Shown: piece after piece, positions 3,450-37,695 of the stretch
Layout: the number at the start of each line of letters is the position of its first letter
Numbering within the stretch: position 1 is the stretch's first letter
From: a virus
IMG/VR virus record: IMGVR_UViG_3300035698_009674
Span: 1 to 37,725 of that record
Strand: one strand, 5' to 3'
DNA: 37,725 nucleotides
Translations under genes and position numbers: made by a program
The notes under the pieces: generated by a model
Told to the model about the DNA's origin: nothing
What the model saw: only the letters and a program-made list of their open reading frames with translations
The model's database searches: none

Positions 3450-3737
3450 CTACGGCAACACAGCTATTGTTTTGAATCCCAGTCCAGACGCCATCTTCAT
3501 GGCTTCCTTCTTGGCCTGCGCATATGGCATGGCCTGTGTACCCATCCACGTCTTATTTCTTTTGCTGTCATCAAGGTAATCGGTACTGTCGCCAGCGTTC
3601 GGACCAAATCCAAACAGCCACTGTCCACGACCCTTTGGCTTCCCATGAGATCTTTCATACGTCGAAGTATTGACAGAGACAGCCTCTCCAATTACCTCCG
3701 TGGACTTCTCGGACAATTCCTTGAGTAAACTCTTCAT
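3450..3737 (-). CDS. Small protein with putative capsid-targeting N-terminus (95 aa)
   Basis: The start follows the previous stop with no gap. The N-terminus, MKSLLKELSEKSTEVIGE, is an amphipathic helix of the type shared by several neighbours, and contains an I-G-E tripeptide at residues 16-18 that would fit a T4 gp21-type cleavage site. The body has a GRGQWLFGFGPNAG motif and an Ala/Met-rich C-terminal helix ending in FKTIAVLP. I know no function for it. By inference it could be an internal head protein delivered with the DNA, or a minor virion protein. Confidence 0.65.
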   Translation of the reverse strand: MKSLLKELSEKSTEVIGEAVSVNTSTYERSHGKPKGRGQWLFGFGPNAGDSTDYLDDSKRNKTWMGTQAMPYAQAKKEAMKMASGLGFKTIAVLP

Positions 3738-3992
3738 CTAATCCTCCACGCGATCCATCTTCGTGCCACACTTCGGACACTTCAATTCCATGCACGGCTT
3801 GCCCGTGTCATGCGACATCTTGTGCCCACACTTCGGACAGACACATTTCCCGTCTGGACCTTCGCCTTTGCCGCCCGGACCCTTGCCTTGACCACCCGGC
3901 GCGTCAGGATCCCTGCGACCCTCCCCTGGACCACCGCCAGCACCGAATCCTCGACCACGCAACCTGTCCAACTTTTCAAGTAACTCTCTCAT
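3738..3992 (-). CDS. Gly-rich small protein with C-terminal zinc ribbon (84 aa)
   Basis: It begins MRELLEKLDRL, similar to its neighbours, followed by a glycine/proline-rich linker (residues 14-48). The C-terminus holds paired cysteine motifs: C52-P-K-C55-G-H with H61, then C67, and C72-P-K-C75-G, the pattern of a zinc ribbon. Such ribbons usually bind nucleic acid or protein, but the target is unknown. The start has GGAGGTG upstream. Its ATG shares an A with the stop of a possible start-less small frame just upstream (TGATG). Confidence 0.75.
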   Translation of the reverse strand: MRELLEKLDRLRGRGFGAGGGPGEGRRDPDAPGGQGKGPGGKGEGPDGKCVCPKCGHKMSHDTGKPCMELKCPKCGTKMDRVED

Positions 3993-4090
3993 CAGTACAC
4001 CTCCATCAGTATTTCGTTCGATGTGATCTTTCCAAGGGCCGACGACAGTTTTACACTAACCTCTGCAGTCTGTCCTGTCTTGTCATTTAT
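3992..4090 (-). CDS. Possible 32-aa frame with non-standard AUA start
   Basis: The roughly 95 bases between two genes hold a frame that begins at an ATA codon (4090-4088), right after a GAGGAG sequence, and ends in TGA overlapping the next ATG as TGATG. That is the coupling used across this operon. The peptide, INDKTGQTAEVSVKLSSALG and on, has normal protein-like composition. No ATG, GTG or TTG opens it before the central region. AUA initiation is rare, and the spacing from GAGGAG is short, so this could be a decayed gene or simple spacer. Confidence 0.25.
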   Translation of the reverse strand: MNDKTGQTAEVSVKLSSALGKITSNEILMEVY

Positions 4091-4632
4091 AACTCCTCCA
4101 GAAGATCAATATAGACACGGTTGAAATCGCCATCCTTCTCCTTGGTCCCGCGCACCTTGAAACCAGCCTTCTTCGCCGCCTTCTCCATCTTGTCCACGGA
4201 GTCCGAGCTATACTTCGCCTTGCCGTAGACCTGGAATACGCCTGGGCTGCCCTTGGGAGCCGACGTGAACGCAAAGTCCTTCGTGGCCTTCCGCAGCATC
4301 TCGTTGCCGCGCTCCAGAGCTTCCGCCGACGATTTCTTCACAACCTTGGACTCGGAGATCGCCATCTTGGTTGGGAGAGATCTATACATTTTATTGGCAG
4401 CGGAGTACGCCCTGTCAATATGCTTCGCCAACTCGTCGAACTTCTCCTCGTTGACCTTCCTAAGACTGTCGCACGCCCCAGAGACGCCAGCCAAAATATC
4501 CGCAACCGACTTCATTCCACCCGAAATGTTCCCGCTGGAAAAGTGCTGAGCGGCCTTTTGAGCCGAAGATGGAACCTTATCCAGCTTCTTGGAGGCTTGC
4601 CCCGTTATCATTTTCTCCAGTAGCTGTCTCAT
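4087..4632 (-). CDS. Hypothetical alpha-helical protein (181 aa)
   Basis: The N-terminus MRQLLEKMITGQASKK matches the amphipathic start shared by several small neighbours. The middle is Ala/Ser/Lys-rich and strongly helical (residues about 20-125). The last 50 residues form a compact domain with GVFQVYGKAKYSS and a final VYIDLLEEL. The start overlaps the previous stop as ATGA (4629-4632), so it is coupled to the holin-like gene. No family is recognised. A head-internal or core protein is an inference from the N-terminus and neighbourhood. Confidence 0.7.
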   Translation of the reverse strand: MRQLLEKMITGQASKKLDKVPSSAQKAAQHFSSGNISGGMKSVADILAGVSGACDSLRKVNEEKFDELAKHIDRAYSAANKMYRSLPTKMAISESKVVKKSSAEALERGNEMLRKATKDFAFTSAPKGSPGVFQVYGKAKYSSDSVDKMEKAAKKAGFKVRGTKEKDGDFNRVYIDLLEEL

Positions 4633-4991
4633 CCGTTCAGCTCCTTCGGATTGTCAGCATCGTCCACCACAGACGTATCCTCCCAATCGGGACCATCGTC
4701 CTCGTCATCATGCACGTGAGGCTGCCCGTTGCCGTTCCTGACCCCCAGAGCGCCATGCACAGCCGCTGCGACATCCGCCCCCTGGGCTACCGCCCTCTCC
4801 GCTGCCTTCGCCGCTCCCTGCGCCCCGTGGTCGCTTATGCCTTGTCCCAGGATATACGTCCCCAGGATGCCCAGCGCGGCGTAGATCGTCTCCGCGCCGA
4901 CCGGCTTGCCAAGAACGTCGTTCACGATCATTCCCACCGCTGCGAGAACCGCGATGATCAGCTTCTTTGACTTCAAGCTATTCAGGTCCAT
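4629..4991 (-). CDS. Holin-like small membrane protein (120 aa)
   Basis: Residues about 11-28 (LIIAVLAAVGMIVNDVLG) and 35-53 (TIYAALGILGTYILGQG) are two hydrophobic segments after a short basic start (KSKK). They are followed by an Ala-rich region and a long acidic, His/Asp-rich tail. Two membrane segments, a small size and a charged C-terminus fit a class II-like holin, which would make membrane lesions for endolysin release. A virion membrane-contact protein is the alternative. The start has an AGGAGG ribosome site directly preceded by the 16-bp palindrome at 5003-5018. Confidence 0.55.
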   Translation of the reverse strand: MDLNSLKSKKLIIAVLAAVGMIVNDVLGKPVGAETIYAALGILGTYILGQGISDHGAQGAAKAAERAVAQGADVAAAVHGALGVRNGNGQPHVHDDEDDGPDWEDTSVVDDADNPKELNG

Positions 4992-5002
4992 CAGATCCTC
5001 CT

Positions 5003-5018
5003 GCGAACTGGAGTTCGC
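5003..5018. repeat. 16-bp palindrome, copy 1 (GCGAACTGGAGTTCGC)
   Basis: Intergenic, 12 bases upstream of the ATG at 4991 and immediately before its AGGAGG ribosome site. Perfect 7-bp arms around a GG centre. Flanks (gatcctcct before it on the plus strand) match copy 6 at 32138. Confidence 0.85.
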
Positions 5019-5031
5019 TCACTCAACCAGT

Positions 5032-5316
5032 CTATGACTTGCTTTTCTCTGCTGTCTTTTTCGCATCATTCAACATCGAAATCACCTGATCGAGATTTTT
5101 CATATTGAGATCATTCCCTGCCGAAATCTGCTTATGGATACTCTTGATCTCCCTCATCGCAAGTAACAGATTCTCAACACCCTTCGAGGATGCACGGTAG
5201 TACACGCCCTCATTCAGATCGCCATCAGATTCATCGGGCACGTCCTCGCCAAGGATCTTACCAGGATCCACGCCCGCATTCTGGAGCATTTCGGTCAGAA
5301 TTTTATTTTTGATCAT
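5032..5316 (-). CDS. Small protein with shared LTEML-NAGVDP N-terminus (94 aa)
   Basis: The first 23 residues (ILTEMLQNAGVDPGKILGE) closely match those of the gene directly upstream (5343-5669), while the rest differ. After an acidic stretch (DVPDESDGDLNEG) the C-terminal half is helical with lysine-rich ends. The L-G-E tripeptide at residues 22-24 could be a prohead-protease cleavage site, which would remove the shared segment. No family is recognised. Start chosen at ATG 5316 with AGGAG upstream. Confidence 0.7.
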   Translation of the reverse strand: MIKNKILTEMLQNAGVDPGKILGEDVPDESDGDLNEGVYYRASSKGVENLLLAMREIKSIHKQISAGNDLNMKNLDQVISMLNDAKKTAEKSKS

Positions 5317-5342
5317 CGCACATCTCCTATTTCATCACCCTC

Positions 5343-5669
5343 TCAACCGCTCTCACTGCGAGACCGCTGGACCTCCTTGCGCCACGCATCGCCTGCCTTG
5401 ACAAACGCATCGTAAGCCGCCTGGGTAGCCGAATCGAATTTCGCCGCTGTGTATCTCTTATCCTGATAAGCCTTGCCGTATCGCTTCTTGAGAGCTGCCT
5501 CGAAACGATCCTCAGCAGCCTTGGCCGCATGGTAGAACTTGAAGTCAACAGTCCCTTCTTCTACCGATTTTTCAGACGTAACCCCACCCCCATCAAGAAT
5601 ACGCACTGGATCCACACCAGCATTATTGAGCATCTCGGTGAGCAACTGTTTTTTCGTCTTGGCGATCAT
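5343..5669 (-). CDS. Small protein, N-terminal paralogue of the next gene (108 aa)
   Basis: The start (KKQLLTEMLNNAGVDPVRIL) is about 75 percent identical to that of the 5032-5316 protein over 20 residues. The body is a helical, Ala/Lys/Arg-rich domain (KAYQDKRYTAAKFDSATQAA). A V-T-S-E segment at about 30-33 follows the shared part. The ribosome site is GAGGAG. Shared leader with different bodies suggests a localisation or processing signal rather than a catalytic domain. Function not known. Confidence 0.7.
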   Translation of the reverse strand: MIAKTKKQLLTEMLNNAGVDPVRILDGGGVTSEKSVEEGTVDFKFYHAAKAAEDRFEAALKKRYGKAYQDKRYTAAKFDSATQAAYDAFVKAGDAWRKEVQRSRSESG

Positions 5670-5672
5670 GGT

Positions 5673-6092
5673 CTACTCCTCGTCCTCTCCGAGCATGGAG
5701 ACGTCTTTTTCAACCTTGTCCCAAGCCTTTTTCCAACGCTTGAACGCTTTCTGGATGTCGTTCATCGCCTTCTCTCCGACCTTCAGAGCGACCTTCACTT
5801 CGTTGTTTTCTGTAACATCCCCCCAGTAGCCCTCCAGCATCTTGAGATTATGTTTGGAGCTGGCATCAATGCGGTAGTTGTTCTTTTGGATCAGCTTGGC
5901 AACTACCTGCATGTTGCCCTTCTGAACAGCCGTCGATGACCCGTCTGACTCGGACAAAGTTTGATCTTCGTCCTCCTCATCAAGAAGCCGATTTGCCTCC
6001 GCCAATGGATCAGCAACGATCTCCACATCATCATCCTCGGACAGCACCTTCCCCTTGATAACATCTCCCAATTCTTCAACAAATTTCTTCAT
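5673..6092 (-). CDS. Acidic small protein, putative internal head protein (139 aa)
   Basis: I take the ATG at 6092, which has GGAG eight bases upstream; an ATG two codons earlier is poorly spaced. The N-terminus MKKFVEELGDVIKGKVLSE is amphipathic and ends with L-S-E, followed by a very acidic segment (DDDVE, LLDEEDEDQ). The C-terminal half is a charged helix (NDIQKAFKRWKKAWDKVEKD). The arrangement of targeting helix, [LIV]-x-E and acidic body recalls T4 internal or core proteins. This is an inference from pattern only. Confidence 0.65.
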   Translation of the reverse strand: MKKFVEELGDVIKGKVLSEDDDVEIVADPLAEANRLLDEEDEDQTLSESDGSSTAVQKGNMQVVAKLIQKNNYRIDASSKHNLKMLEGYWGDVTENNEVKVALKVGEKAMNDIQKAFKRWKKAWDKVEKDVSMLGEDEE

Positions 6093-7257: not shown

Positions 7258-8022
7258 CTATGACCGTTGCATGGTCGGGGGTCGATTTTCATTACCTATT
7301 GATCCTATTTTGCTCGGGAGTGGCTGTCCCCAACCCATGTTCATAACGATCGCAACACGACCAATCCGATTGTAATCGTACGTCGCCAGAGCGTTTACCG
7401 CGTTGAAATCGGCTGGAGTGGTGACGATTATCTCGGCCACACCCGTGGTGTAATTGATCGTTCCGGAGCCACCGCCACCGCCAGCCCCAGTAAGAACACC
7501 ATCTCCCGCTGCATCTGTAAACGTAACAGTCCCTGCCACTATCGATACCGAGGTGGGATCCACCAACCCATTCACCAGGGTAAGGTCATATTTCGATGTC
7601 ACTCCATCGCCGGTAACTCCAGTATCCTCTGCCACTATTGGAAGCACAGCATCAATCACCTGGTCAGACTTTACCCTGATCTTGAAAGACGGAGGAACCA
7701 AGATCCCACCGTTTGTCTGGACATAACTTCCACTGGCAACATTCGCAGTAGAGATCTGATACTCTGCATCGTCATCATCCACCAGATGAATCGATACGTT
7801 GGGAAGCGCTGCACAGACCAAACCCCAATGGATCTGCTCCACACGCATACCAACAACATCGGGAGCGGCAAACTCACCGCCAACCAACCCACCTGTCCAT
7901 TTCTGGATCCTGCCTCGGAAGAGTTCCTCCTCCGACGGGGTGCCATCTGAGACACTCCCGTCAAAGGAACCTCCGCTGTAGACTTCCTGGATGGCAATAA
8001 CTGGAATAACGCTCGTTGTCAT
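7258..8022 (-). CDS. Tail-associated protein sharing a beta domain with the sheath (254 aa)
   Basis: Residues about 143-217 carry the motif series DLTLVNGLVDPTSVSI, TFTDAAGDGVL, GTINYTTGVAEI and ATYDYNR. The same series occurs at residues 115-202 of the tail sheath. The N-terminal 140 residues have no family I recognise; a PSFKIRVKSDQVIDAVLP stretch looks like beta sandwich. The C-terminus ends in a Trp/Gly/Pro-rich tail. A virion decoration, tube-associated or baseplate role is likely from its position between sheath and tube genes. The start overlaps the homing endonuclease stop as ATGA. Confidence 0.65.
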   Translation of the reverse strand: MTTSVIPVIAIQEVYSGGSFDGSVSDGTPSEEELFRGRIQKWTGGLVGGEFAAPDVVGMRVEQIHWGLVCAALPNVSIHLVDDDDAEYQISTANVASGSYVQTNGGILVPPSFKIRVKSDQVIDAVLPIVAEDTGVTGDGVTSKYDLTLVNGLVDPTSVSIVAGTVTFTDAAGDGVLTGAGGGGGSGTINYTTGVAEIIVTTPADFNAVNALATYDYNRIGRVAIVMNMGWGQPLPSKIGSIGNENRPPTMQRS

Positions 8023-8780
8023 CGAATTCCCCTAACCAGCGACAAACGACCCAAGGCTCCTGTTTGAACCTCTCGCTGAAACAAAGACACCTTCTCCGCC
8101 ATTGGATGATCTATATACTCTTCGCCAACCAACCCCAGATGAACCATATCCATCGGCCCAATTATCTTGAGCGACTTCCCAGAATGCATTTCCACAAACT
8201 CACGCAACCTGTCCATCGTGCGATCATCCAACCAACCCTTGACCTCGTGATATTCGACAGCACCATCGATCCGAACCACAAAATCCGGAGTGTAACAACT
8301 GCATTTCCTCAACCCAAACTTGCAAGGCTCGTAATCCCACTCGTAATTCTGACCATCGAGCCATTGCGCATAAGCCAACTCCCATGTTGACTTGAAGATC
8401 CACACACGACCGTTGGCATCCATCCACTCTTCCGTCTTGAAACGCCCCCATCCAGTCCGAGACTTCACCCCAAACTCGTCAAGACATGACTCCACAATGG
8501 AATTGGAAACGCCGTACACCTTCTGCAAAGCCTCGAACGTTTCCCCCTTGGTATACCCCTCAGCAAGATCTCTACGCTGCTCTAGCGATAGCTTCTTGCG
8601 CTTGAACGATTTTCGCTTCGGCACACCAGCTCGGCGCAGAACTTTTGACACGGTCCCAGAGCCCACTCCTACCTCGGAGGCAATCTCGCGAGTTGTCTTT
8701 CCTTCATGATAAAGGGCTACCATCTGACCAACCACGTCAGGCAAAACTCTCGGGTATCGACCGTGCCAATTTCCTCTCAT
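8019..8780 (-). CDS. Free-standing homing endonuclease, HTH plus PD-(D/E)XK nuclease (253 aa)
   Basis: I start at the ATG at 8780 (AAGGAGAGG upstream); the longer frame to 9089 only overlaps the sheath gene. Residues about 15-50 contain a helix-turn-helix of resolvase type (TTREIASEVGVGSGTVSKVL) and a second similar segment follows (about 65-95). The C-terminal nuclease has the layout STWELAYAQWL, YEPCKFG, YTPDFVVRIDG, then YHEVKGW, giving catalytic D, E and K of the PD-(D/E)XK fold. Phage proteins of this architecture act as selfish homing nucleases that cut uninvaded relatives. It sits between the sheath gene and a tail gene and ends in an ATGA overlap, so it causes no break in the operon. 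Confidence 0.8.
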   Translation of the reverse strand: MRGNWHGRYPRVLPDVVGQMVALYHEGKTTREIASEVGVGSGTVSKVLRRAGVPKRKSFKRKKLSLEQRRDLAEGYTKGETFEALQKVYGVSNSIVESCLDEFGVKSRTGWGRFKTEEWMDANGRVWIFKSTWELAYAQWLDGQNYEWDYEPCKFGLRKCSCYTPDFVVRIDGAVEYHEVKGWLDDRTMDRLREFVEMHSGKSLKIIGPMDMVHLGLVGEEYIDHPMAEKVSLFQREVQTGALGRLSLVRGIR

Positions 8781-8799: not shown

Positions 8800-11589
8800 C
8801 TATGCGGCCAAGGCCAATTGTTGAAAACGAAACACAATAAATTCTGCTGGCTTGTTTGGCGCAATGCCGACATCGCAGAATACGATTCCCTGATCCACAG
8901 TGTTCTGAGGATTGTTCGTCCTGTCACAGATGACGTAGAACGCATCGTCTGCAGAACTTCCAGCGAAGTATCCTGCCTGGTACAGACCGAGCAGGAAGTT
9001 GGTGATCTGGGTCCGAATCGCTGACCACAGAGCTGGTCCGTTGTTCTTGAAAACGTGAGAATGCGTCGCATTGAAGACCGACTTCTCAACCATCATGAAC
9101 AATCTCCGCATCTGAATGTACGGCCATTCTCCGCCTGCGATATCGAGGGACCGAGCGCCCCATACGCACCTGCCGGTATGCGGCCACTGCACGAGCGCAT
9201 TGATCTTCTCAGGATAGACCACACCAACCTGCGTCGGGGTGAGATCAAGTTCCAGCCCAACGGACCAGTTGATCTGACCATCCGCAGTTCCCGCAGGAGC
9301 CTTGCCGACGTTCTTCGTGATGTCTGTCCTTGCGTACACGCCCGCGACGTGACCGCCGCACGGAATGTCCGTGGCTACCTCTGTCACAGGATCCATGATC
9401 TTGATGTGCGGGTAGTACAGCGCTGCGTAGGAAGTGTACTTCTGCAGCTGGAACTTCTTCCAGTTGACCGCTTCCTGCGGGGAGAGGCCAGAAGGAACCG
9501 TCAGGATGACGAACTTGTCCTTCATCAACTCTGCGTACGTGATCAACGCATCGGCCACCGTGGTATCCGTCTGGAAATCAGAGGCAACGAGCTGCATCAG
9601 AGCATCCACCTTACCGAAGGCCCACAGACCCCTCTGATCGGCTGCCAGCGTCGCTCCGATTATATCGTTGGACGTGAGGGCCGAGCCATCGGTACCGCCA
9701 GCCAACTGGCCCACGATGCTTGTTGCAGGGTTCGTGTAGTAGGAGACTACCTGTGCCGATTCACCTCCTGGGCCTGACGCTGGGTATCCATCGATCGCCC
9801 ATGTGAGGATGAAAATGCCAGTGTCATAATCCAGCTCATTGGTACCACTGGCGTCCAGGATGAATTTCTGCGGGTACCCAACCTCCTGTGTCGTGCCAAC
9901 GGAAAGGTTCCCGTCGCCATCATCGACAATCCGTACGGGCTCGGAATATCCACATGCGAGATAAATGGCCGATGCCGCAGTGAAGGTCGGAGCGCCCGTG
10001 ATCCCCGCGAGGTTCAGCACGTCATTCGTCGGACCTGCCAAGTCGGCGATCTGACCCGTAACGTAATCGATGGTACCAACCTGTATTGCAGGACCAGCAC
10101 CATCAGGATGCATCAGTTTGCCTGTGCCGTCGTCCACGATGATCTGCTCACCACTCACAGAATCGATGATCGTGATCCGTACAGAGGAAGCGGTGATCGC
10201 CGCCGGAGTGGTGGTATTCCCTGGCGACACGATAGGTGCAATTGTTGCGGCAGGAGTCGGCCCTGTACCGATGTGGATCAACGAACGAATCTCGTACGTG
10301 TCTGCAGCGGTCCACTTGTTTGTCGTACCACCGACCAAAACACCAGTGATCGTCGTCGCCGTGTTCGCGGTGATGACCGTATGACTTTCGTCAGCCGTGT
10401 TGTAGAGCAACATTCCCACGAGCGCATTGACAACCCACGATGCCGTGGTGTCCGTCAGGAACGCTGCTGCAGCACTCGTGTCGTCTGTACCCGTGTCATA
10501 ACGAGCACCATCTTCGAACGAGAAATCAGCCGCAAAGGTCGTCGGGAAACAGCTGTTCGCCAGAACGTACTGCCATCCCTTGAACATGCCATCGTAAGTG
10601 TCGGGAACGCTCACCGAGGATGCATCGGAGTGTTGCATGGTGGCCGAGAAGTCCTCAGCGACGACAGACACGCCAGCCAGCGCCGACGGGTCCATCTCGT
10701 TACCATACTCAACAACCTCGATATACTCCGAGCCGCCCATGTCGGCATTCATCACCGTGGCTACGTAGTGAGGATCCGTGGTGGTCAAGAATACGAGATC
10801 GGAGAACTGCTCGATGGTTGCCCATGAGGAAACCCCCGTGACGCCAGCATCCGTGTCCTCCTGGACCAATACTGTGAAACGGGTGTACCGCGCCTCATCA
10901 TCCTCCAGGTAATCACTTGAGCCAGGGACAATCGACACCCTGTAATAATTGCCAGAAAGACCAGGCCATTTCATCTGGAAGCGGAAGACTGTGTAGTCAT
11001 ACACTCCCTCGATCAGATCGAGGGCACCCGCGTAATCAGCAGGATTGGTCAGAGTGATAGTGGCCTCTCCAGTTGCGTAGTCGATGAATCCGCTACCGCC
11101 AGCACCACCACCGGCTGTCTGGGACAGCACGCCATCCCCTGCAGCGTCAGTGAAGACGTTGTCAGTTACCGCGCCATTGAAGGTGATCTCGACAGTGGTA
11201 GGATCTGCGGGAGGATTGGACAGCTGCAACGTGTACAGACCGCTGGGCTCTACTGTATTCCCGAGATTGTCAGGAGTGGCAGCCGGAACGGAATACAGAA
11301 AATCCCAGTAGGCGTCGTCCGCATCGCTCGGAGCCGCACGCACGACATACAACTGCTGCCCGCTGTTCTGGAAGAAAGCGTACGCCTCGGTCGGCGTCAG
11401 CCCCTTCTCTGTAAAGGTACCAAACTTCGTCGAGAATTCCGGGAAGCTCGTCACCAGAATCGGATCGTCCACGGGACCTTTTGTGGTGAATCCTATCAAC
11501 CCCAGGTTGGATGTTGAAACACCAGCAATCGGGCCAGGACCCGCAGGGACTTCTTTGATGCGTATACCAGGATACGTGTATTCAGACAT
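8800..11589 (-). CDS. Tail sheath protein (929 aa, with inserted beta domains)
   Basis: The N-terminus (YTYPGIRIKEVPAGPGPIAG ... GLIGFTTKGP) and C-terminal core (TPTQVGVVYPEKINALVQ, GARSLD, WPYIQMRRLFMMVEKSV, ATHSHVFKNN, DQGIVFCDVGIAPNKPAEF) are typical of contractile sheath subunits, which surround the tail tube and contract at infection. It is longer than T4 gp18 (659 aa). The extra length lies in residues about 110-620, which hold three copies of a DDGxGxL...IDYxTG beta domain (about 115-202, 468-520, 548-600) and another surface-type domain (about 364-433). These probably decorate the tail surface. Start at ATG 11589 with TGGAGACAAGC upstream. Confidence 0.92.
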   Translation of the reverse strand: MSEYTYPGIRIKEVPAGPGPIAGVSTSNLGLIGFTTKGPVDDPILVTSFPEFSTKFGTFTEKGLTPTEAYAFFQNSGQQLYVVRAAPSDADDAYWDFLYSVPAATPDNLGNTVEPSGLYTLQLSNPPADPTTVEITFNGAVTDNVFTDAAGDGVLSQTAGGGAGGSGFIDYATGEATITLTNPADYAGALDLIEGVYDYTVFRFQMKWPGLSGNYYRVSIVPGSSDYLEDDEARYTRFTVLVQEDTDAGVTGVSSWATIEQFSDLVFLTTTDPHYVATVMNADMGGSEYIEVVEYGNEMDPSALAGVSVVAEDFSATMQHSDASSVSVPDTYDGMFKGWQYVLANSCFPTTFAADFSFEDGARYDTGTDDTSAAAAFLTDTTASWVVNALVGMLLYNTADESHTVITANTATTITGVLVGGTTNKWTAADTYEIRSLIHIGTGPTPAATIAPIVSPGNTTTPAAITASSVRITIIDSVSGEQIIVDDGTGKLMHPDGAGPAIQVGTIDYVTGQIADLAGPTNDVLNLAGITGAPTFTAASAIYLACGYSEPVRIVDDGDGNLSVGTTQEVGYPQKFILDASGTNELDYDTGIFILTWAIDGYPASGPGGESAQVVSYYTNPATSIVGQLAGGTDGSALTSNDIIGATLAADQRGLWAFGKVDALMQLVASDFQTDTTVADALITYAELMKDKFVILTVPSGLSPQEAVNWKKFQLQKYTSYAALYYPHIKIMDPVTEVATDIPCGGHVAGVYARTDITKNVGKAPAGTADGQINWSVGLELDLTPTQVGVVYPEKINALVQWPHTGRCVWGARSLDIAGGEWPYIQMRRLFMMVEKSVFNATHSHVFKNNGPALWSAIRTQITNFLLGLYQAGYFAGSSADDAFYVICDRTNNPQNTVDQGIVFCDVGIAPNKPAEFIVFRFQQLALAA

Positions 11590-18655: not shown

Positions 18656-20275
18656 CTACAGGGTCGTGGTCACAGATGGCAATCCAGTTACCGTGATCAC
18701 GCCGTAGTACTCGTTACGCAACATGCGAGTGGCGTACCGAGTCCTCACGCCCTTACGGAACGTGAAGTCATTCGGGTCCAGGAAGGTCGGGGTGACCTGC
18801 AGCGGAATGTACGGAGCGTACACGTAGCCCGCGTCCAGGAAGCTGTTCCCCTTGAGTCCTACCAAGATCTGGTTGGGCTGCATGTAGGGGTCCTGGTAAA
18901 CGGCGTACTTGCGGAGCAGCGTACCGATCCGCATGATGCCGTAGTTCGCCATGACAGGGCCATAGCTCGGGGACTGCACGTTCGACTCGATGCTCGCGTA
19001 GTCACCGTGTGTGGACAGCTGGTCCAGCAACCCACCAACGTCAGGAGACACGACGATGAAATTGGCCGGTGCGCGGCCAGAGGTCGTGTGAATCTTCGAC
19101 GCTACTGCGCTGATCTGCGTGACCAAATGGCGGATGCTCTCCAGCTCTCCGGGGATGCCTGGAGCGTAGGTGTACGCGATCGAGTGCGCAGCACCATTGA
19201 TGAGGTCAGTGATGATCTCACGGTCCACTTCCAGCATCACCTCATTCGAGAAGGTGCTGACAAGCTCTGCCTCGGCGTCGATGCCGTGCAGGGAACGAAG
19301 GTCATCCACCGCTTCCACCGTCCAGCGAGCCTTGAGCTTACGGCTCTCAGCCTTGACGGTGTGCAGCGCGATATCCAAGCTGATGCTCGGAATCTCTGCG
19401 CCATCGGTGTACCCGACCAACTCCCAGTTCACGAAGTACTGGAAGTAAATGACGGTATTGGCCCAGAAGTCCGACGCGCCAGCCGCAGATCCGAGTGGCG
19501 TGATCGCCCAGTTGCCCGTGGCGACAGCGAACGTTCCGACGTCGTTGCCGTTGATGTCGTCGATCAGATGCCCTGCAGCGTCCAGCGTGGCCTCAACTTC
19601 TACCGCTACAAGAGCAGCGTCCGCATCGGCGATACGGTAGAACGCCTTCACGTAGAAGGTGCGCTGAGCGTCGACAGCGGGAGTCCTGATCGGATTCCAC
19701 TCTGTCACCGCGCAGTTTGCCGAGCCCTGGTTCAGGGTGGCCGAGGCCGCGCCAGTGTCTGTGCAGGCCGCGTCGTAATCTACAAACTCCGAACTGTAGT
19801 ACTTCGCGAAGTTCTGGTTGATGTTGTCATCTTCCGCCAGCGCACCCGTGTAAGCCATGTCGGTCGGATCGTCAGTGACGCCGCCCTGCGGAATCTTCGT
19901 TCCCTTGCGACCGTCGTACTTCTTCTCATAAAAGAAGATTCCACCGATCGGCTGGGTCATCGGCTGAACCGATACGAGCTGGTTGGCGATCAGGTTGGGG
20001 AACACCCTCCGCAGGATCGGGAACACGAACTTCGTGAACGAACCTGCATTGGTGCTCAGGGTATCCTCGTGGAAAGACTTGATGTGTTCCATCTCGTTTT
20101 CCAGGAGGATCGCTGTGGCCTTCTTGGTGTAGCCACGGTCATGCTTGACAGGGATCCCTTCAAGCAGCTCTCCCCACTTGCCAACGCATGCGGCGGAATA
20201 GCTCTCGTCGTGAATCGTCTTCGGGCCTGCCTGCTCCAGGAGAGCCCTTGCTTCTGTACTTTCGTTGTCCATCAT
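18656..20275 (-). CDS. Major capsid protein (T4 gp23-like)
   Basis: The 539 residues are close to T4 gp23 (521). The diagnostic N-terminal part includes FTKFVFPILRRVFPNL, NQLVSVQPMTQPIGGIFFYE and ESRKLKARWTVEAVDDLRSLHG. The later part has TSGRAPANFIVVSPDVGGLL and YAPYIPLQVTPTFLDPNDF. It builds the icosahedral head shell with an HK97-type fold. It follows the protease-scaffold gene, as in T4, and is followed by a strong terminator. The ribosome site AGGAG favours the second of two adjacent ATGs (20272). Proteolytic trimming by the upstream protease is likely but the site is not obvious. Confidence 0.93.
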   Translation of the reverse strand: MMDNESTEARALLEQAGPKTIHDESYSAACVGKWGELLEGIPVKHDRGYTKKATAILLENEMEHIKSFHEDTLSTNAGSFTKFVFPILRRVFPNLIANQLVSVQPMTQPIGGIFFYEKKYDGRKGTKIPQGGVTDDPTDMAYTGALAEDDNINQNFAKYYSSEFVDYDAACTDTGAASATLNQGSANCAVTEWNPIRTPAVDAQRTFYVKAFYRIADADAALVAVEVEATLDAAGHLIDDINGNDVGTFAVATGNWAITPLGSAAGASDFWANTVIYFQYFVNWELVGYTDGAEIPSISLDIALHTVKAESRKLKARWTVEAVDDLRSLHGIDAEAELVSTFSNEVMLEVDREIITDLINGAAHSIAYTYAPGIPGELESIRHLVTQISAVASKIHTTSGRAPANFIVVSPDVGGLLDQLSTHGDYASIESNVQSPSYGPVMANYGIMRIGTLLRKYAVYQDPYMQPNQILVGLKGNSFLDAGYVYAPYIPLQVTPTFLDPNDFTFRKGVRTRYATRMLRNEYYGVITVTGLPSVTTTL

Positions 20276-20301: not shown

Positions 20302-21939
20302 CTACTCGTTAATAAGTCCCGCCAATCGCTTCATGTAGCTCATGTCGTTACCCAGATCATCAGTCTTGCGACCCTTGACCCGAGCACCTTCATTGCCTTC
20401 ACTCAGCACTTCCTTCTCCTGCCGCTCACCCGTGCCACGCTGTAAATCTTTACGCGCTGCCGCGAGTCGCTGCTCGGAGACATCCCGAATTCCCTGCTCC
20501 ATCACCATCTTGTCAACCACGGCCTCGGAGGTAACGTCCTCCATGAGACCCAACAACTTTCTACCATTTGCCAATCCTACAACCTTGTCATGCTTGTAAG
20601 CCTCGATCTCGCTCTTATTCTGAGCCTCCTCGGATTCCTCCAGGGCTTTGGCGATATCTGTCTCGGCTTTTTTCGCACGGCTCTCAGCATCCTCTCGCTG
20701 AGCATCTGCCTCCATCCCAACATCTACAGCCTTCTTCAATTTAACGTTCAGCGATTCCACCCTCTCAGTGAGGAGGGACACCTTTTCGTTCATCGCCGCA
20801 TTCTGCTCTCGCAGCTCGGCCTCTTCCTTGGATACCATATCCTCGTCGGCCCGCTCGGGCAGATCCGAAAGGATCGCCGCAAGCTTCTCCTTGGCGTCGT
20901 CAACATCGGAGAACTTGTGTTTTGCCACCAGCTTCCTGATCGATTCCGCCATCGGATGACCGCCAATCTCGCGCTCGATGTATTCCATGCACTCGGCCTG
21001 CACCGCGCGCTCTTCGTTTTTCTCTGCCGCATCCTTGGCCTCGGATACCTCAAGGTCCTTTGCCTTGGCAGCATCCAACACCGCCTTCTCGTCCGCGTCT
21101 GCACGGAACGGAGCAACCATCTCCCAGATGGCTGCCAGCATCGCCTTTGATCCGCCAATCTCAGGATCGGATTCGAACTCCTCCCGCAGGTCACTCGCAA
21201 GCTCCTCCTTGGCCTCCAACAGGCTCTCTACAAGCTGCTTCTCGAAAGACTCGGACATTGCCTCGCGAACACGATCCTCGGCCTCCTTGACCGCCTCGTC
21301 GACGCCCTTGTTGACCTTGAGCTTCGCCTTCTCGATTGCATCCTCTTGCAAGGTGGCTGCAACCCCAGGGAACTCATTCAGGAACAACTGCGCGATGTCC
21401 GGCTGGTCACTGTCGACATCCTCTGTGAAGATGTTCGGGAACGCCGTCTTGATTGCAGGATCGGCAACGAAGTCCCAGGTCTTCAACACGAAGTCATCCT
21501 GGACAACCTCGCCCTCAACCTTGGAATCGGTCGATGTGCGCGTGGACCCATACCCCCGAGAAGAAATGCCGATCTGCACTTTCGACTCGATCAGGGCCTT
21601 GAGAGTCTTGCCCTCTGGGGTATTAAGGATCTCGCACTCGCCAACGATAATGCCATCCTTGATCTTGAGATTGGTGATGAGGTGCGAAACACGCTTCAGG
21701 GAAGTCTTGCCATCGGTCGGATGGTCCAGCTCCCCCAACACCCTTCGGTTTGAAAGATCCTCCGAAAGACGATCAATCTCGCGCGTCATCAACTCTTCCC
21801 TGTAGATACGACCGTTTTGAGTTGCCACACCAACCCGTCCAAACTCTCCACGTGCAAAGAGCTTTTTGACACCATCAGCACCTACCGCTTCGGTAAGTGT
21901 AAGATTCACAGGATTTGATTCGATCAACAGATTCGGCAT
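20302..21939 (-). CDS. Prohead protease fused to scaffold (gp21 plus gp22 type, 545 aa)
   Basis: Residues about 25-165 match the T4 gp21-type prohead protease: GEFGRVGVATQNGRIYREEL, then RRVLGELDHPTDG with the likely catalytic His at 73, and VQIGISSRGYGS with the likely nucleophile Ser at 126 or 127. From about 190 to the end the protein is a long Glu/Lys/Ala-rich coiled coil like scaffold protein gp22. One chain thus seems to supply core and protease. I start at the ATG at 21939 (GAGGGTG upstream). A TTG at 22089 would add 50 residues. It precedes the capsid gene. Confidence 0.85.
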   Translation of the reverse strand: MPNLLIESNPVNLTLTEAVGADGVKKLFARGEFGRVGVATQNGRIYREELMTREIDRLSEDLSNRRVLGELDHPTDGKTSLKRVSHLITNLKIKDGIIVGECEILNTPEGKTLKALIESKVQIGISSRGYGSTRTSTDSKVEGEVVQDDFVLKTWDFVADPAIKTAFPNIFTEDVDSDQPDIAQLFLNEFPGVAATLQEDAIEKAKLKVNKGVDEAVKEAEDRVREAMSESFEKQLVESLLEAKEELASDLREEFESDPEIGGSKAMLAAIWEMVAPFRADADEKAVLDAAKAKDLEVSEAKDAAEKNEERAVQAECMEYIEREIGGHPMAESIRKLVAKHKFSDVDDAKEKLAAILSDLPERADEDMVSKEEAELREQNAAMNEKVSLLTERVESLNVKLKKAVDVGMEADAQREDAESRAKKAETDIAKALEESEEAQNKSEIEAYKHDKVVGLANGRKLLGLMEDVTSEAVVDKMVMEQGIRDVSEQRLAAARKDLQRGTGERQEKEVLSEGNEGARVKGRKTDDLGNDMSYMKRLAGLINE

Positions 21940-22161: not shown

Positions 22162-23181
22162 TCAGTTTCCCGACATGCCCTCGCCACCGATCTTGTCCAG
22201 GCTCTTATGGATCAGGGAGAGCACCGGCTTGATCTCTGCGATGAACTCGTCCTCGTCCATGACGTCCTCGTCCAGGCGTCCAGCCTCCCATGATGCAGAA
22301 ATATACTCATAGGATTCCTCAAGCACCCGAGTCACAGCCTCGTCCAGGAACTCCTCAGAGAGCAGCTCCAGAATGCCACCTATGCGATCGAGCATCTCGT
22401 CGCGCACGGTAACGCTCTCCATGTTGACATCCTCGACGAGAGATGCCAGCTCCACTGCGAATGTGGACTCTTCCCCTTCGCGACGTGCGGCCCAACGGGA
22501 CGACTTGCGACCGGAAGTCTTGCCCTTGCCCGACTTCGACCAGCGACCCTTTTTGCGCTTCTCCTTGGAGAGCTTGCCAGCACCACCCGCTGCTTTCGCT
22601 GCACGAATGCACCTGCGACCGCTGGGGTCCTTGGAGTCTTTCCTTGTGCCGGGAGGACACTGGAAGGAAGCCTTCTTCGACATGCTGCCCGCTCTCGAAC
22701 GGCGAGTTTTCTTCGCAACAGCCTCGGCAACCAGGAAGTCGACAACTTCCTCGGCACGCTCCTTCAACTCATCGGAAGCATCACCGGGAAGACTCTTCTC
22801 CTTGAGGCCGTCCAGGATTTCCTCGACATCCTCAACCTCCAGGTTTTCAAACTGAAGATCCATGACCGCGTCGAACAGCTCGGCGTTGACGGAGGGAGCG
22901 TTCAAAGGATCGACACCCTCATCCGCACCATCACCGTCGCCCTCGCCATCCTCGTCGTCCTCTTTGCCCTTGGCCTCGTATCCACACTTCGGGCACTTTC
23001 CATCCTTCATCTTGGTTTTGCACTTCGGGCAAAGAGCATCCTCTTCGGCCAACGCAGCACCATCGTCGTCCTCGGTCATTGGCAACCCACCAAGAACCGC
23101 CTGCTCTGCCATGTTGAATCCAGTAAGCCCAAGCCCCTTCATGTCTTCTTCCAGGGAGGTCTTGACGTTTCGTTTTACCAT
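22162..23181 (-). CDS. Putative prohead core protein with zinc ribbon (339 aa)
   Basis: The N-terminus MVKRNVKTSLEEDMKGLGL is amphipathic. Residues 51-66 hold a zinc ribbon (C51-P-K-C54, C63-P-K-C66) followed by an acidic stretch. A basic centre contains a CPPGTRKDSKDPSGRRC motif and many Lys/Ser/Gly. The C-terminal 100 residues are helical. It occupies the place of the small prohead core genes 67/68 between portal and protease in T4, so a core or DNA-binding internal head protein is plausible; no homology to those is visible. GAGGAG lies upstream of the ATG. Confidence 0.65.
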   Translation of the reverse strand: MVKRNVKTSLEEDMKGLGLTGFNMAEQAVLGGLPMTEDDDGAALAEEDALCPKCKTKMKDGKCPKCGYEAKGKEDDEDGEGDGDGADEGVDPLNAPSVNAELFDAVMDLQFENLEVEDVEEILDGLKEKSLPGDASDELKERAEEVVDFLVAEAVAKKTRRSRAGSMSKKASFQCPPGTRKDSKDPSGRRCIRAAKAAGGAGKLSKEKRKKGRWSKSGKGKTSGRKSSRWAARREGEESTFAVELASLVEDVNMESVTVRDEMLDRIGGILELLSEEFLDEAVTRVLEESYEYISASWEAGRLDEDVMDEDEFIAEIKPVLSLIHKSLDKIGGEGMSGN

Positions 23182-27793: not shown

Positions 27794-28830
27794 GGCTTGC
27801 CTTTGCCCTTATTCCTTGACGACCATCGCTGCTCCGTGTTCCCACGAACGCTTGGCTTTATAGGACCAGGAGGAAACTTCCCCTCTCTCTTGCGAGCAGG
27901 CTCCAGCTCAGGGTTTTCTGGAGGATCTTTTCTCGGCAACAAAGAATCCTCCGTCTCTGGCTCGGGCTCATCGTCGGGATCGAGAGCCTCCACCCTTTCA
28001 TCGTACTCATCCTCCATGTCATCGGCAGGCTGCCCTAAATTCTCGCCCTTGGGCATGAAGCCCGCGTCCTGCCCCGCGCCCTCCTCGTCGACGGGCACCT
28101 CCCCCAACTCCTCCCCGTCGGGCACGTCATCGCCGTCCTGGGCCTCGTATTCGACATCCACGATTCCGGACCTCTCCTCATCGGACAGATCCATACGATC
28201 CGCAACGTCCATGGGGGATCCATCCAGGTCGCGCAGATTCCCAGCCCGACGGATTGCATTGAGCGCAGCAAGCACGCGCCCGCGAGACACCGGATCGTTG
28301 AACGCCTTGGCAGCGCCCTCCCCGTACTTGTTCTTGATGTATTCGATCCGCTCGGCAGAAACAGTAATGGTCCCCAAGTCTCGCGACCCCACGAGCCCCA
28401 GATCCATCTTGATGCCGTGCATCCTCATAATGATATCGCGCATCGACTTATCGATCTTGTCCACCTGCGGATCGATCGTGTCAGTCATCCTCTCCTTCGC
28501 GTGCGCCACATCAAATCGGTACTGCATCGCAAGGTACTGATCCTCCAGGCGCTCCAACTCCCGCATTTTGTCAGCGAATTTTCTCTCAGCATCGATGAAC
28601 ACACGGGGCAACGTCGAACGCACCAAGCCGCCCTCTCGCAAATCCTGCCTGTACAGCTTCAATGATTCGATCAAGGACGTTCGTTTGATATCGCGATACT
28701 CGCGCATCCTGTCTTGGATGTAAGTCGCCACTGCAGCTGGGGGGTATCCCGCATATAGCATTTCCTGGACCTGATCGAAACACTTCAGCGTTTTGATCTT
28801 TACGAACTTTTTAATCGCCGCCTTAGCCAT
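27790..28830 (-). CDS. Possible terminase small subunit (346 aa)
   Basis: The N-terminal half is helical, with a segment (VQEMLYAGYPPAAVATYIQD) that could be a helix-turn-helix, then a charged helix (ERKFADKMRELERLEDQYLA). The C-terminal 150 residues are acidic and Pro-rich, ending in a basic tail (RWSSRNKGKGKP). Its position immediately before the large terminase, with an ATGA overlap, and a DNA-binding-like start make a small terminase the best guess. No sequence family confirms this. Confidence 0.5.
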   Translation of the reverse strand: MAKAAIKKFVKIKTLKCFDQVQEMLYAGYPPAAVATYIQDRMREYRDIKRTSLIESLKLYRQDLREGGLVRSTLPRVFIDAERKFADKMRELERLEDQYLAMQYRFDVAHAKERMTDTIDPQVDKIDKSMRDIIMRMHGIKMDLGLVGSRDLGTITVSAERIEYIKNKYGEGAAKAFNDPVSRGRVLAALNAIRRAGNLRDLDGSPMDVADRMDLSDEERSGIVDVEYEAQDGDDVPDGEELGEVPVDEEGAGQDAGFMPKGENLGQPADDMEDEYDERVEALDPDDEPEPETEDSLLPRKDPPENPELEPARKREGKFPPGPIKPSVRGNTEQRWSSRNKGKGKP

Positions 28831-31741
28831 CTTTCAACTTCCCACTAAAAGCACCTAACAACTGTCTGCGATTATTCTTCTTCCGTGGCAACACCCGCAG
28901 CCGCTCTCCCTTTACCCTATCTGGTTTGAGCTTTTTTTTCAAACTCTGCCTTTCCTCCTCCTTTAATTTACTGACAAGCAGATCGATTCGCTTGGTGGCT
29001 CGCTTCTCTGACGCCTGCTTTTCCTCGTAACTCTCGGGCTCATCTCCCATCAGCCCAACAAACTGCCCTGTCTTCACCCCGAGAACATCAAGCATTGCCT
29101 CGTCATGACCTACGCTGGCCACGCAGTAATAACTCGGGACGTCTGGCAACGCATCATCCACACCGATCCTGGAGATCCTCGTCTCGCACTGGCTGTTTCC
29201 AGTTATGGAAACTTTTCCATTTCTCCTAACGACAAGAGTCCCCATATCATTACTCAAACACCACACACGCTCTCCAGGGAGGATAGAACTATCAACCCTG
29301 AACGCATTCTCCCGCATGGGACTATCCTGTAAATACGCATCATCTCGATCGCTAATATGAATGTCATAGGCGAGCCGCCCAGCAGATGTCCTCGACTTTC
29401 TTGTTGATATATTTGCAGAGAACCCCCTTCGCACGCACAAGGATTGGAGCCTCTCAAGCATCGTAAGGTTTATGCTTGTTATCTTTCTGACGCTTGAATT
29501 CCATTTCTTTTTTGTCCCGTCCCCGAGCCATATGCCATGAATAAGACAATCCAATTGCTCCCTTGTGCAATCCTCCAACAATGGACTGAGATCCTTGTCG
29601 ATATACTCCTCGACATCCTTCCATCCCTTCATGGGCTTTAAATGATCCAGCCTACTCCTTCTCCGTCCTTGCGGAATCCCGTACCAGTACATCCCTCGAA
29701 CTTCATTCACCCACCATTGAACACCAGCACCATTCAAGACAGCGACGATATCTTTATTCCAAGGCTGATGTTTCGCTTGGTAAATCGTAAGCTGCTTTCC
29801 GTTAAAACTGCCATCGCTCACAAAAAGACCAATCAAGCGAAGCTCATCATCGGAAAGATCCACCCCAATTGCACTCTGGAACCCACAGACAGGAATATAC
29901 CGCCTCTTCACACCAGACAAGTTCTCGGCTGTATCCACCCACCATTCTGACCTCCTCGTCCCTCGCATTGTTCTCCTGTTACTACGACAAACCATCCTGT
30001 GATCACCAGTCACGAGCAAGTCTACCGTCTTCGTCTTTACCCTGTACATCTTCTCGTCACGGCCAAGGACGCGATCCACTTTCCCCTTAGCAACAACCCA
30101 TTCCACACCTCCGCTTGCTACGTCAAAACCAGCAACGGGATCCCCAATGCCAACACCATCAACCCCCACAAACCCATCCCTTGTCAAAACTTCTGTTTTA
30201 ACGTCAAAACAATGTATTGCAGGACTCCAGTCCAGCTCCCCAAACACACACATCGTAGCGCGGTGTTGCAACCCATCCAGACCCGACGCCGAGCGTAAAC
30301 TCAAAAGGCCCAGATCCGTTTCTCCATCCATATACCTCCGCAAACTATTATCCTTCTGGTTTGTCGTCTGCTTGCCGGTGAAGATCGCGGGCTTATATTC
30401 GCTGAGCCGATCCTGGTAAATATTATGGACAGCATGATGCCACGCATACACCAACGGTCGCTCCCCAGCCTCAATCAAACTGGCTGCAAACTCGGCAACA
30501 TAGCCAGCCTTTGCAAGCCCCGCAGCTTGCCGAGACTCCTGATCGATCGCCCTCGCCAGCTGCCCTTTGATGTGAAAACTGGCACCCTCGTACTCCTTTG
30601 CCTTGCTACGGACAGCACCTATGAGCCTGTCATACAGCAGCTCATCGTAGTGCAGATCCTCCACCTTGCGCACCACCTTGGGCAGATCTATCGACACCTC
30701 ATCGTCGGTGGCCCTCCTCCTCAAGAGCAATCCCTCCCGCGACAGGTGCCCGTTCAGTGCCTTCGGATCAGCAACGATCCTCTCCCCGTACCCCATGCAC
30801 CACTCGCGCGTGAACGCCTCCTCCGAGCCCAGGGAGTGGAAATCGATCGCGTTCATCACCGACCAGATCTCTTTCCCGTATCCATAGACGGGCGTCCCCG
30901 ACAACCCCCACACGTTGGAAGAGGTTTCCGATATCAACGATGCCGCAGAATACTTCCCAGTGCCCGTGTGCCGAAGCTCTTGAACCTCATCATACAGGAT
31001 GGTTTTGAATTGACGCTTCAGGAGGTACTTTTGCCACCACGCAATCAACCCGTAATGAATGATCACAAACGGCGTGGTGGGGATCCTATAAGGAGTCCGC
31101 GTCTTCAGTATCGGAGCAAGGGCCTCCCCGCGCTTTGTCGCCAGCTCAAACGGCGTCATGTCCCGCTGCCCCTTCAGGCCGGGAAGATCAAACAGCATCC
31201 CAATCATCCTCTGCCACTGCTTTTGGACATGGGTTTGACACACGATCAGCACGGGGTATTCGTTTGCCGTGGCAGCCGCCGCAAGACCGCTCCACGTCTT
31301 TCCGAGCCCCATCCCGTCCCCAAGCACACACCTGCGATTGGACGTCATGAAGGTTACCGCAGACTCCTGGAACGGAAACAGCTTCCCCAGGAAATCAGCA
31401 GGGGGCTGCGTGCGCCGACGATCAGCCCCCGACATACGACTATTGATCTGCTCGACCGCAGATCTGCGCGCCTCGTCCAACACCCCCTTGCACTGCTTCA
31501 CGTTCACAGGAAAACGCATCAGCAGCCAGTTCAGATCTGCCACCTCACGACGGGTGTTATGAAACTCCAAAAAACCACCACCCCCACGAGTCACCTGCGC
31601 GCCTGGAAAGATCCTTTTCGCATACTCCAACAGGAGGGGTTCCCCGCTGAGTTTGAACATGCCCGTCTTGTTGTGATAGGTCAGGCTCCCATAGACATGA
31701 CCCTCCAGGCTTGGCTTTTTCAGATAGTCAGGAATGATCAT
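28823..31741 (-). CDS. SNF2-type DNA helicase precursor interrupted by an intein (972 aa; 633 after splicing)
   Basis: The start is the ATG at 31741, overlapping the previous stop as ATGA. Motif order is that of SF2/SNF2 helicases: Walker A GDGMGLGKT (141-149), TILYDEVQE with the DExx box at 251-254, GLSGTPVYG (motif III), SLRSASGLDGLQ (motif V), and motif VI split by the intein: H510, then after splicing SQCETRISRIG. Phage proteins of this type remodel DNA in replication or recombination (T4 UvsW is a functional parallel). It directly follows a PD-(D/E)XK nuclease gene, which may be its partner. The C-terminus is Lys/Arg-rich. Confidence 0.9.
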   Translation of the reverse strand: MIIPDYLKKPSLEGHVYGSLTYHNKTGMFKLSGEPLLLEYAKRIFPGAQVTRGGGGFLEFHNTRREVADLNWLLMRFPVNVKQCKGVLDEARRSAVEQINSRMSGADRRRTQPPADFLGKLFPFQESAVTFMTSNRRCVLGDGMGLGKTWSGLAAAATANEYPVLIVCQTHVQKQWQRMIGMLFDLPGLKGQRDMTPFELATKRGEALAPILKTRTPYRIPTTPFVIIHYGLIAWWQKYLLKRQFKTILYDEVQELRHTGTGKYSAASLISETSSNVWGLSGTPVYGYGKEIWSVMNAIDFHSLGSEEAFTREWCMGYGERIVADPKALNGHLSREGLLLRRRATDDEVSIDLPKVVRKVEDLHYDELLYDRLIGAVRSKAKEYEGASFHIKGQLARAIDQESRQAAGLAKAGYVAEFAASLIEAGERPLVYAWHHAVHNIYQDRLSEYKPAIFTGKQTTNQKDNSLRRYMDGETDLGLLSLRSASGLDGLQHRATMCVFGELDWSPAIHCFDVKTEVLTRDGFVGVDGVGIGDPVAGFDVASGGVEWVVAKGKVDRVLGRDEKMYRVKTKTVDLLVTGDHRMVCRSNRRTMRGTRRSEWWVDTAENLSGVKRRYIPVCGFQSAIGVDLSDDELRLIGLFVSDGSFNGKQLTIYQAKHQPWNKDIVAVLNGAGVQWWVNEVRGMYWYGIPQGRRRSRLDHLKPMKGWKDVEEYIDKDLSPLLEDCTREQLDCLIHGIWLGDGTKKKWNSSVRKITSINLTMLERLQSLCVRRGFSANISTRKSRTSAGRLAYDIHISDRDDAYLQDSPMRENAFRVDSSILPGERVWCLSNDMGTLVVRRNGKVSITGNSQCETRISRIGVDDALPDVPSYYCVASVGHDEAMLDVLGVKTGQFVGLMGDEPESYEEKQASEKRATKRIDLLVSKLKEEERQSLKKKLKPDRVKGERLRVLPRKKNNRRQLLGAFSGKLKDG
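29195..30211 (-). other. Intein with LAGLIDADG homing endonuclease (339 aa), inserted in helicase motif VI
   Basis: It begins with Cys at precursor residue 511 (CFDVKTEVLTRDG, block A), has the TGDH block B at intein residues 68-71, and ends VRRNGKVSITGN with Ser as the first extein residue. The usual penultimate His is Gly, as in some active inteins. Two LAGLIDADG motifs, LIGLFVSDGS (D133) and LIHGIWLGDGT (D231), both keep the acidic residue, so endonuclease activity is plausible. Removal restores a continuous helicase motif VI. Confidence 0.9.
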
Positions 31742-36728: not shown

Positions 36729-37279
36729 CTCCGTGCCCCCCGATCTATCGGCTCAGGCTTCTTCGGCAACTCCTCTACGGGCTCATACGTCATCTCGAAG
36801 ATGTCTGGCTTGCAAGGATATCGCTCATTTTTGACGTCCGTGATGATCCAGTCGCCAGGACAAACGGTGTGCCCACCTTCGAGCGTATCGATCCATCCGT
36901 GGGCGTGCATCGTGAACCTGCAATGCTCACACACACGCGCCCCGTCCAGATCCGGGGTGCGGTAGTACCGAACTACCTTGCCCTCGAACAACTCGCCGTC
37001 AGGCATTCCTTGGAGCTGAACAGATTCATCAGCGGGGTGATCTCCGTTCTTGAACCACTGATGCGCCTCGATCTCCACTGGTTTCTTTCTAAATTTCGAC
37101 GTCTCACCCCCCCCTGCAACACGTGCTCGGGGAACCGTCAGAGGACCGGCGTCTCGACTTGCTTCGAGATTGGTCTTCAACACAACAATCTCATCAAGAC
37201 ATTCTCTCACTACCTCACCCCCAGGATCGGGCAACAAAAAAGATGCCAACCTCATTTCCTTGATCTTTGCAGAGTCCAT
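36725..37279 (-). CDS. Phage protein with KFRKKPVEIEA motif (184 aa)
   Basis: The ATG at 37279 shares an A with the previous stop. After about 55 residues comes KFRKKPVEIEAHQW, then a C-terminal CPGDWIITDVKNERYPCKP and DIFEMTYEPV. This is a widespread phage family of unknown function, usually shorter; the N-terminal part with EVVRECLDEIVVLKTNL is extra. Confidence 0.7.
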   Translation of the reverse strand: MDSAKIKEMRLASFLLPDPGGEVVRECLDEIVVLKTNLEASRDAGPLTVPRARVAGGGETSKFRKKPVEIEAHQWFKNGDHPADESVQLQGMPDGELFEGKVVRYYRTPDLDGARVCEHCRFTMHAHGWIDTLEGGHTVCPGDWIITDVKNERYPCKPDIFEMTYEPVEELPKKPEPIDRGARR

Positions 37280-37695
37280 CAGGACACGTACTGAGCGAAC
37301 CGTTTCGCCGCGAGCTTTGCCTGGGCCAGCGTCTTGATCTTGACCTTGCCGCACTTCACGAACGGAGTATTCTCGCTCTTGATCCACTTCTCCGCGAACA
37401 GCATGTCACCAATGCCGAAGCCTACGACCGCACGATGGCTCCACCCATACCACTTCTTCTCCCCCTCGTTGAATCCGATGGAGCAGCAGTTACCATCGCC
37501 CGCAAGCTGCACCTGTCGAATTCCCATCTTTTTACACAGGATCCGCGCCATCCTGGCGTCGCCCATGTACTGACCGTTGTAGTCGGAGTAACAGGATACT
37601 ATCTCGAAGTCCTTGCACCCGTGATCCCTCCCCTCGATCAGCTCCTTGCAGTAGAAATATCCAGGGTAGTGGCGCTGAAATAGCACCTTCTTCAT
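37279..37695 (-). CDS. Hypothetical phage protein, start uncertain (138 aa or longer)
   Basis: The sequence KKWYGWSHRAVVGFGIGD and the C-terminal KIKTLAQAKLAAKRFAQYVS match a type of small phage protein of unknown function. The ATG at 37695 has only a weak ribosome site, and the frame stays open and protein-like (DKTEIKRING) to the window edge at 37725, so the true start may lie outside. In another frame a TGA overlapping this ATG could instead be the stop of an upstream gene. Confidence 0.6.
   Translation of the reverse strand: MKKVLFQRHYPGYFYCKELIEGRDHGCKDFEIVSCYSDYNGQYMGDARMARILCKKMGIRQVQLAGDGNCCSIGFNEGEKKWYGWSHRAVVGFGIGDMLFAEKWIKSENTPFVKCGKVKIKTLAQAKLAAKRFAQYVS

Follow-up and report, generated by a model that had tools for sequence, protein, structure and literature searches.

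The window analysed here, a 37.7-kb phage fragment from IMG/VR (37 725 nt in full), carries a T4-like head and tail module on its minus strand. Terminase, portal, sheath, two tail tubes and endolysin were assigned on this strand by reading, and for the tail genes and endolysin the assignments are also backed by gene order kept in relatives. Between the second tail tube gene and the endolysin lie six small genes (3450–6092), all on the minus strand and each with a good ribosome-binding site, where the first-pass annotation had placed them. They are arranged around a holin gene (4629–4991, minus; phrog_9987, E = 2e-12). The endolysin-like gene (1949–2956, minus), assigned by reading and conserved in position among relatives, lies 3′ of the cluster.

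No known phage gave a DNA-level match to the first 12 kb of the window, and its capsid protein shares only about 25–37% identity with those of the listed isolates; Rhodothermus phage RM378 and Microcystis phage Mel-JY01 are among the nearest. About two dozen uncultured related contigs were found, the longest of 195 kb; a search of genome contigs for a host yielded no relative there. Genes were predicted with a simple gene caller and some starts are wrong, so the leaders described below are probably undercounted.

Elsewhere in the module, a free-standing endonuclease-like gene, possibly a homing endonuclease on reading, lies at 8019–8780 (minus) between the tail sheath (8800–11589, minus) and the gene for a 254-aa protein (7258–8022, minus). 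The sheath and this adjacent protein share a repeated segment, and residues 145–231 of the latter are about 40–47% identical to the relatives’ sheaths. From reading, a helicase-like gene at 28823–31741 (minus) seems to bear an intein (CFDVKTEVLTRDGF ... SITGNSQ). In two relatives a gene is split by approximately 1 kb, probably through an intron or intein insertion: the second tail tube gene in G003 (L007:15129–16700) and the capsid gene in G016 (L054, L055).

The first-pass annotation had noticed a common N-terminus among the six proteins. We scored window genes with a position-specific matrix trained on 77 leaders from relatives, with window sequences left out; all six ranked among the eight best-scoring of the 49 window genes (P = 2e-6), confirming the resemblance. 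Each leader scored P < 0.01, four of them only moderately (P 0.004–0.009). Two leader classes are present, M[KR]xLIE and [LI][LI]xE[MN][LV]xNAGxDP (NAG class).

The 139-aa protein at 5673–6092 (minus; P = 0.009) starts MKKFVEELGDVIKGKVLSE; its leader and linker (residues 1–19, 6036–6092, minus) end in a predicted cut after LSE19. Residues 2–42 alone match the relatives L018 and L024, and the site equivalent to LSE is LNE in L023. Both NAG-class leaders follow: residues 1–25 (5595–5669, minus) of a 108-aa protein starting MIAKTKKQLLTEMLNNAGVDP (5343–5669, minus; P = 0.009), and residues 1–24 (5245–5316, minus), ending in LGE, of a 94-aa protein starting MIKNKILTEMLQNAGVDPGKILGE (5032–5316, minus; P = 0.006). 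The former has homologues with the same leader class in L123, L023 and L024, while for the latter it is the N-terminus alone that is common to L003, L005 and L017. Two of the 108-aa protein’s homologues (L123:2992–3492 and L024:4507–5061) extend further at the C-terminus: a junction, VEE↓D or IEE↓A (↓ marks a putative cut), leads into an additional domain, which might be cut off as a second protein.

The strongest matrix scores (P = 3e-5 each) belong to a 181-aa protein starting MRQLLEKM (4087–4632, minus; leader MRQLLEKMI, 4606–4632, minus) and an 84-aa protein starting MRELLEKL (3738–3992, minus; leader MRELLEKLD, 3966–3992, minus). The 84-aa protein contains a Gly/Pro-rich stretch and two CPKCG zinc-ribbon-like motifs, for which zinc-ribbon matches were weak and all below cut-off; paired zinc-ribbon-type CPKC motifs occur in both this cargo and a presumed prohead core protein (22162–23181, minus). 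The sixth, a 95-aa protein starting MKSLLKELSEKSTEVIGE (3450–3737, minus; P = 0.004), has its leader and linker at residues 1–18 (3684–3737, minus), with a predicted cut at IGE↓A. It has four leader-bearing homologues. A search of viral contigs for further relatives found none, and its model matched nothing at E ≤ 0.001 in libraries of solved and viral structures.

AlphaFold models, built from very shallow alignments, predict that a short helix at the N-terminus leads through a low-confidence linker to a folded body. For the 95-aa protein, residues 1–17 are low-confidence or disordered and the fold begins at about residue 20; the IGE site ends at residue 18. In the 108-aa protein a helix (residues 6–16) is followed by a weak linker (26–38) and a body modelled as a helical hairpin. 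The annotation had described all of these starts as amphipathic, which holds for four of the six (moment 0.50–0.81, counted from M1) but not for the two NAG-class leaders. The [LIV]-x-E sites that it had proposed for several of them are present in three proteins (LSE in 5673–6092, LGE in 5032–5316 and IGE in 3450–3737). In the other three, the sole [LI]xE of 4087–4632 and of 3738–3992 is the LLE inside the leader, and 5343–5669 has LTE within the leader, ILD after it and no other such site.

The same slot in relatives holds up to about a dozen small genes, many with M-[KR]-x-[LI]-[ILVF]-E starts and differing bodies; L010 and L013 are among the few without such a set. Across eight relatives, M-[KR]-x-[LI]-[IL]-E occurs at 77 of 1461 gene starts versus 17 of 7626 internal windows (P = 1.7e-45). 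These relatives do not represent independent samples, and our P values assume independence between genes; permutation and shuffle controls offset this in part. The leader lies mostly at residue 2 or residues 4–5, with the consensus M-R-[EKD]-L-I-E-[RK]-L, and the tagged starts are strongly amphipathic (moment 0.55 vs 0.29, P = 7e-30). Scanning T4 (2/246), RM378 (1/139) and Mel-JY01 (1/209) gave background only. Long contigs carry about 5–20 leader genes each, a number that varies between relatives.

That the bodies are unrelated, as first suggested from the window, is clear from the larger set: 126 leader-bearing proteins, a set with six capsid proteins and some false positives in it, group into 90 sequence families, of which 68 have a single member. 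We considered whether the similar starts are simply remnants of duplication, or of recombination at shared 5′ ends, with no role in targeting. Some carriers are indeed true homologues of one another, and carriers are adjacent beyond chance (nine adjacent pairs in G020 against a permutation mean of 0.9). However, synonymous codons in the leader are fully diversified: their entropy equals background, and 42 LIE cores are encoded by 20 different 9-mers. Selection therefore acts on the peptide rather than the DNA, and the codon result speaks against the leader having been copied recently. The leaders are also kept, on unrelated bodies, across phages whose capsid proteins are 55–82% identical. An origin without targeting was thus already disfavoured, and we regard it as very improbable.

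The leader moves between bodies. In L023, the neighbouring genes 10796–11140 and 11159–11452 share a common body (55% identity over 87 residues) under leaders of different classes. Apparently leaderless KTSC homologues proved to be start-codon miscalls, the leader being present in three phages, and were dropped as evidence of bodies with and without it. A single open frame in G012 (L080:8828–9340, minus) comprises a leader-bearing body, an internal MTKMQSLIRRLEEATGK leader and a body of the 3450–3737 family; it could be a two-cargo fusion or two overlapping starts.

The position of the cluster beside holin and endolysin genes, in the window and in relatives, could mean that the amphipathic start serves as a signal for the membrane or for lysis. 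Yet the holin and endolysin themselves lack the leader, gp21-type sites follow it, and further leader clusters lie far from lysis genes (G010 at 150–153 kb, G011 at 35–39 kb and G020 at 142–147 kb), so we give this explanation very little weight.

Those sites emerge most clearly in the relatives, where [LI]xE[ASG] occurs 21 times within residues 9–40 of the 77 leader proteins, a significant excess over the 6.0 ± 2.4 in shuffled sequences, and shows no enrichment at residues 51–82. The [LI]-x-E site between leader and body is enriched 2.7-fold in the relatives’ carriers. [LIVM]xK was rejected as a site: it is enriched in carriers, but equally so far from the leader, reflecting composition. Homologues whose linkers differ in length still have the predicted site where the body begins (the 3450–3737 family shows IGE↓A, LDE↓A and LAE↓S, another family LEE↓AS, LEE↓AS and LDE↓AS). 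The residue after LIE in the leader is often basic, unlike T4.

The gp21-like protease noted at 20302–21939 (minus) was corroborated by matches to PF03420 (E = 1.1e-12) and phrog_207 (E = 1.7e-40). It is an S77 prohead protease with a long C-terminal extension, and presumably serves as both cutting enzyme and core protein. Its own N-terminus bears LIE7 and LTE17↓A, and the relatives’ proteases have a conserved N-terminal LIE followed by LxE (mostly LTE) before A, S or G. The gp23-type major capsid protein (18656–20275, minus; PF07068, E = 3e-69) has an N-terminal EARALLEQAG and a propeptide (20099–20275, minus) with a predicted cut at LLE59↓N. A site [LIM][LM]E↓N is present in seven of seven complete homologues, a count read from an alignment in which two sequences are cut at tile ends; 38 residues separate it from the conserved PNLIA end, against 43 in T4 gp23. 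An apparent recoding in a relative was discarded, since the TGA flagged in its capsid gene falls upstream of the true start. The predicted sites in leader proteins, protease and capsid protein fit one cleavage specificity.

Within a phage, the capsid protein and the protease have N-termini similar to the leader. This raises the possibility that leader-bearing proteins, though targeted to the prohead core, serve assembly there (as core filler, in size determination or in DNA condensation) and are degraded or kept in the head rather than injected, as with T4 gp67, gp68 and gp22. The T4 core proteins gp67 (MEGLIEAIK) and gp22 (MLKEQLIAEA) also have similar starts. Essential core parts would be expected to be conserved, whereas 68 of the 90 families are singletons and gene number varies among relatives; we consider a purely structural role unlikely.

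Most cargo bodies matched nothing, and PADLOC and NCBIfam scans of the carriers returned scattered weak matches only. The bodies that did match, all in relatives, comprise KTSC, DUF2958, DUF3175 and part of Tad6 (PF25188), a type I Thoeris inhibitor. The leader-tagged Tad6 protein (G011:193860–194147) scores above the PF25188 cut-off but spans only positions 66–145 of 145, lacking the first half of the domain. Full-length homologues without an evident leader occur in G010 and near the end of the window (37279–37695, minus; E = 3.4e-37, positions 6–145, 122.6 bits against a cut-off of 27). Because of the T4 precedent and this one tagged partial domain in a relative, an injected anti-defence function for the cargo is likely, at about even odds.

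The leader is real, selected as protein, mobile between bodies, clustered and followed by gp21-type sites. Our preferred explanation, to which we assign a probability of about 0.7, is that it is a lineage-specific capsid-targeting sequence on a large set of probably injected, perhaps anti-defence cargo. The T4-style targeting proposed in the first-pass annotation is supported by comparative evidence at the sequence level: the leader is conserved as protein, swaps bodies, lies near the endolysin, precedes gp21-type sites and resembles capsid and protease N-termini. We infer that its amphipathic helix (M-[KR]-x-[LI]-[IL]-E or LLxEMLxNAGxDP) would bind the assembling prohead core, where the target is probably the scaffold-like extension of the protease polypeptide, and so carry unrelated small proteins into the head. 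During maturation the S77 protease would cut after [LI]-x-E, either in the linker or inside the leader. The freed bodies would remain with the packaged DNA, be injected together with it and be the first to act in the newly entered cell, with host defences as their most likely target.

A broader proposal, which we see as evenly poised, is that this uncultured T4-like lineage possesses an open-ended injection platform, with two interchangeable leaders delivering about 5–20 cargos per genome as a hyper-variable first wave of anti-defence proteins. If true, this arsenal could be mined simply from gene starts. Injected proteins act before phage gene expression, making them candidate blockers of early defences, but their orphan bodies leave most of them unrecognisable; with a leader that can be read from the sequence, dozens of hypothetical proteins become testable as injected effectors. 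The system may also provide a second leader/protease pair, beside that of T4, for loading phage heads with proteins.

Targeting, cleavage and injected inhibitors all have a precedent in T4 (PMC9026906, PMC12373910). The T4 protease gp21 has the specificity L/I-x-E, ten IPIII residues suffice for packaging, and within the IPIII leader residues 4 and 7 serve targeting and 8 and 10 processing (PMC9026906). Ip1, Ip2 and Ip3 have only the leader in common and each inhibits a different GmrSD enzyme; discovery of internal proteins through their leader is already an established idea for T-even phages (PMC12373910). The T4 starts are MKTFKEF...ITE↓A for IPI, MKTYQEFIAE↓A for IPII and IPIII, and MELITELFDE for Alt. 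A small frame called in T4 (NC_000866 18966–19130, minus) starts MKTFKEFIKED, much like the T4 capsid-targeting leader.

The window and its relatives share with T4 IPI, IPII, IPIII and Alt the layout of a helix, a linker and a body, with an [LI]xE site between leader and body predicted in three of the six window proteins. In both, a short basic or amphipathic leader with a conserved E6 precedes mutually unrelated bodies, variable gene clusters lie beside lysis genes (ipII and ipIII adjoin lysozyme e) and the same phage encodes a prohead protease of the gp21 (S77) family. However, the leader here is M[KR]xLIE rather than MKT[FY]xEF, and its class occurs in T4 only at background; a second, NAG-class leader exists; long contigs have about 5–20 carriers against three IPs; and the bodies are not homologous to IPs, with no IP family among the Pfam or PHROG matches of window proteins or carriers. 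The system appears to work in a T4-like way, yet by homology is not of the T4 family. T4 Alt, gp67, gp22 and gp21 (MNEPQLLIET) also have [LI]xE-type starts, but they are single conserved genes with no variable cargo set, and their bodies are not homologous to those here. In phiKZ, 201phi2-1 and SPN3US, a diverged gp21-like protease cuts many head proteins C-terminal to a glutamate, and these enter along with the DNA (PMC9026906); there the propeptides are long and the proteins large. Capsid-targeting labels are known from T4, while the leader described here differs and marks far more proteins.
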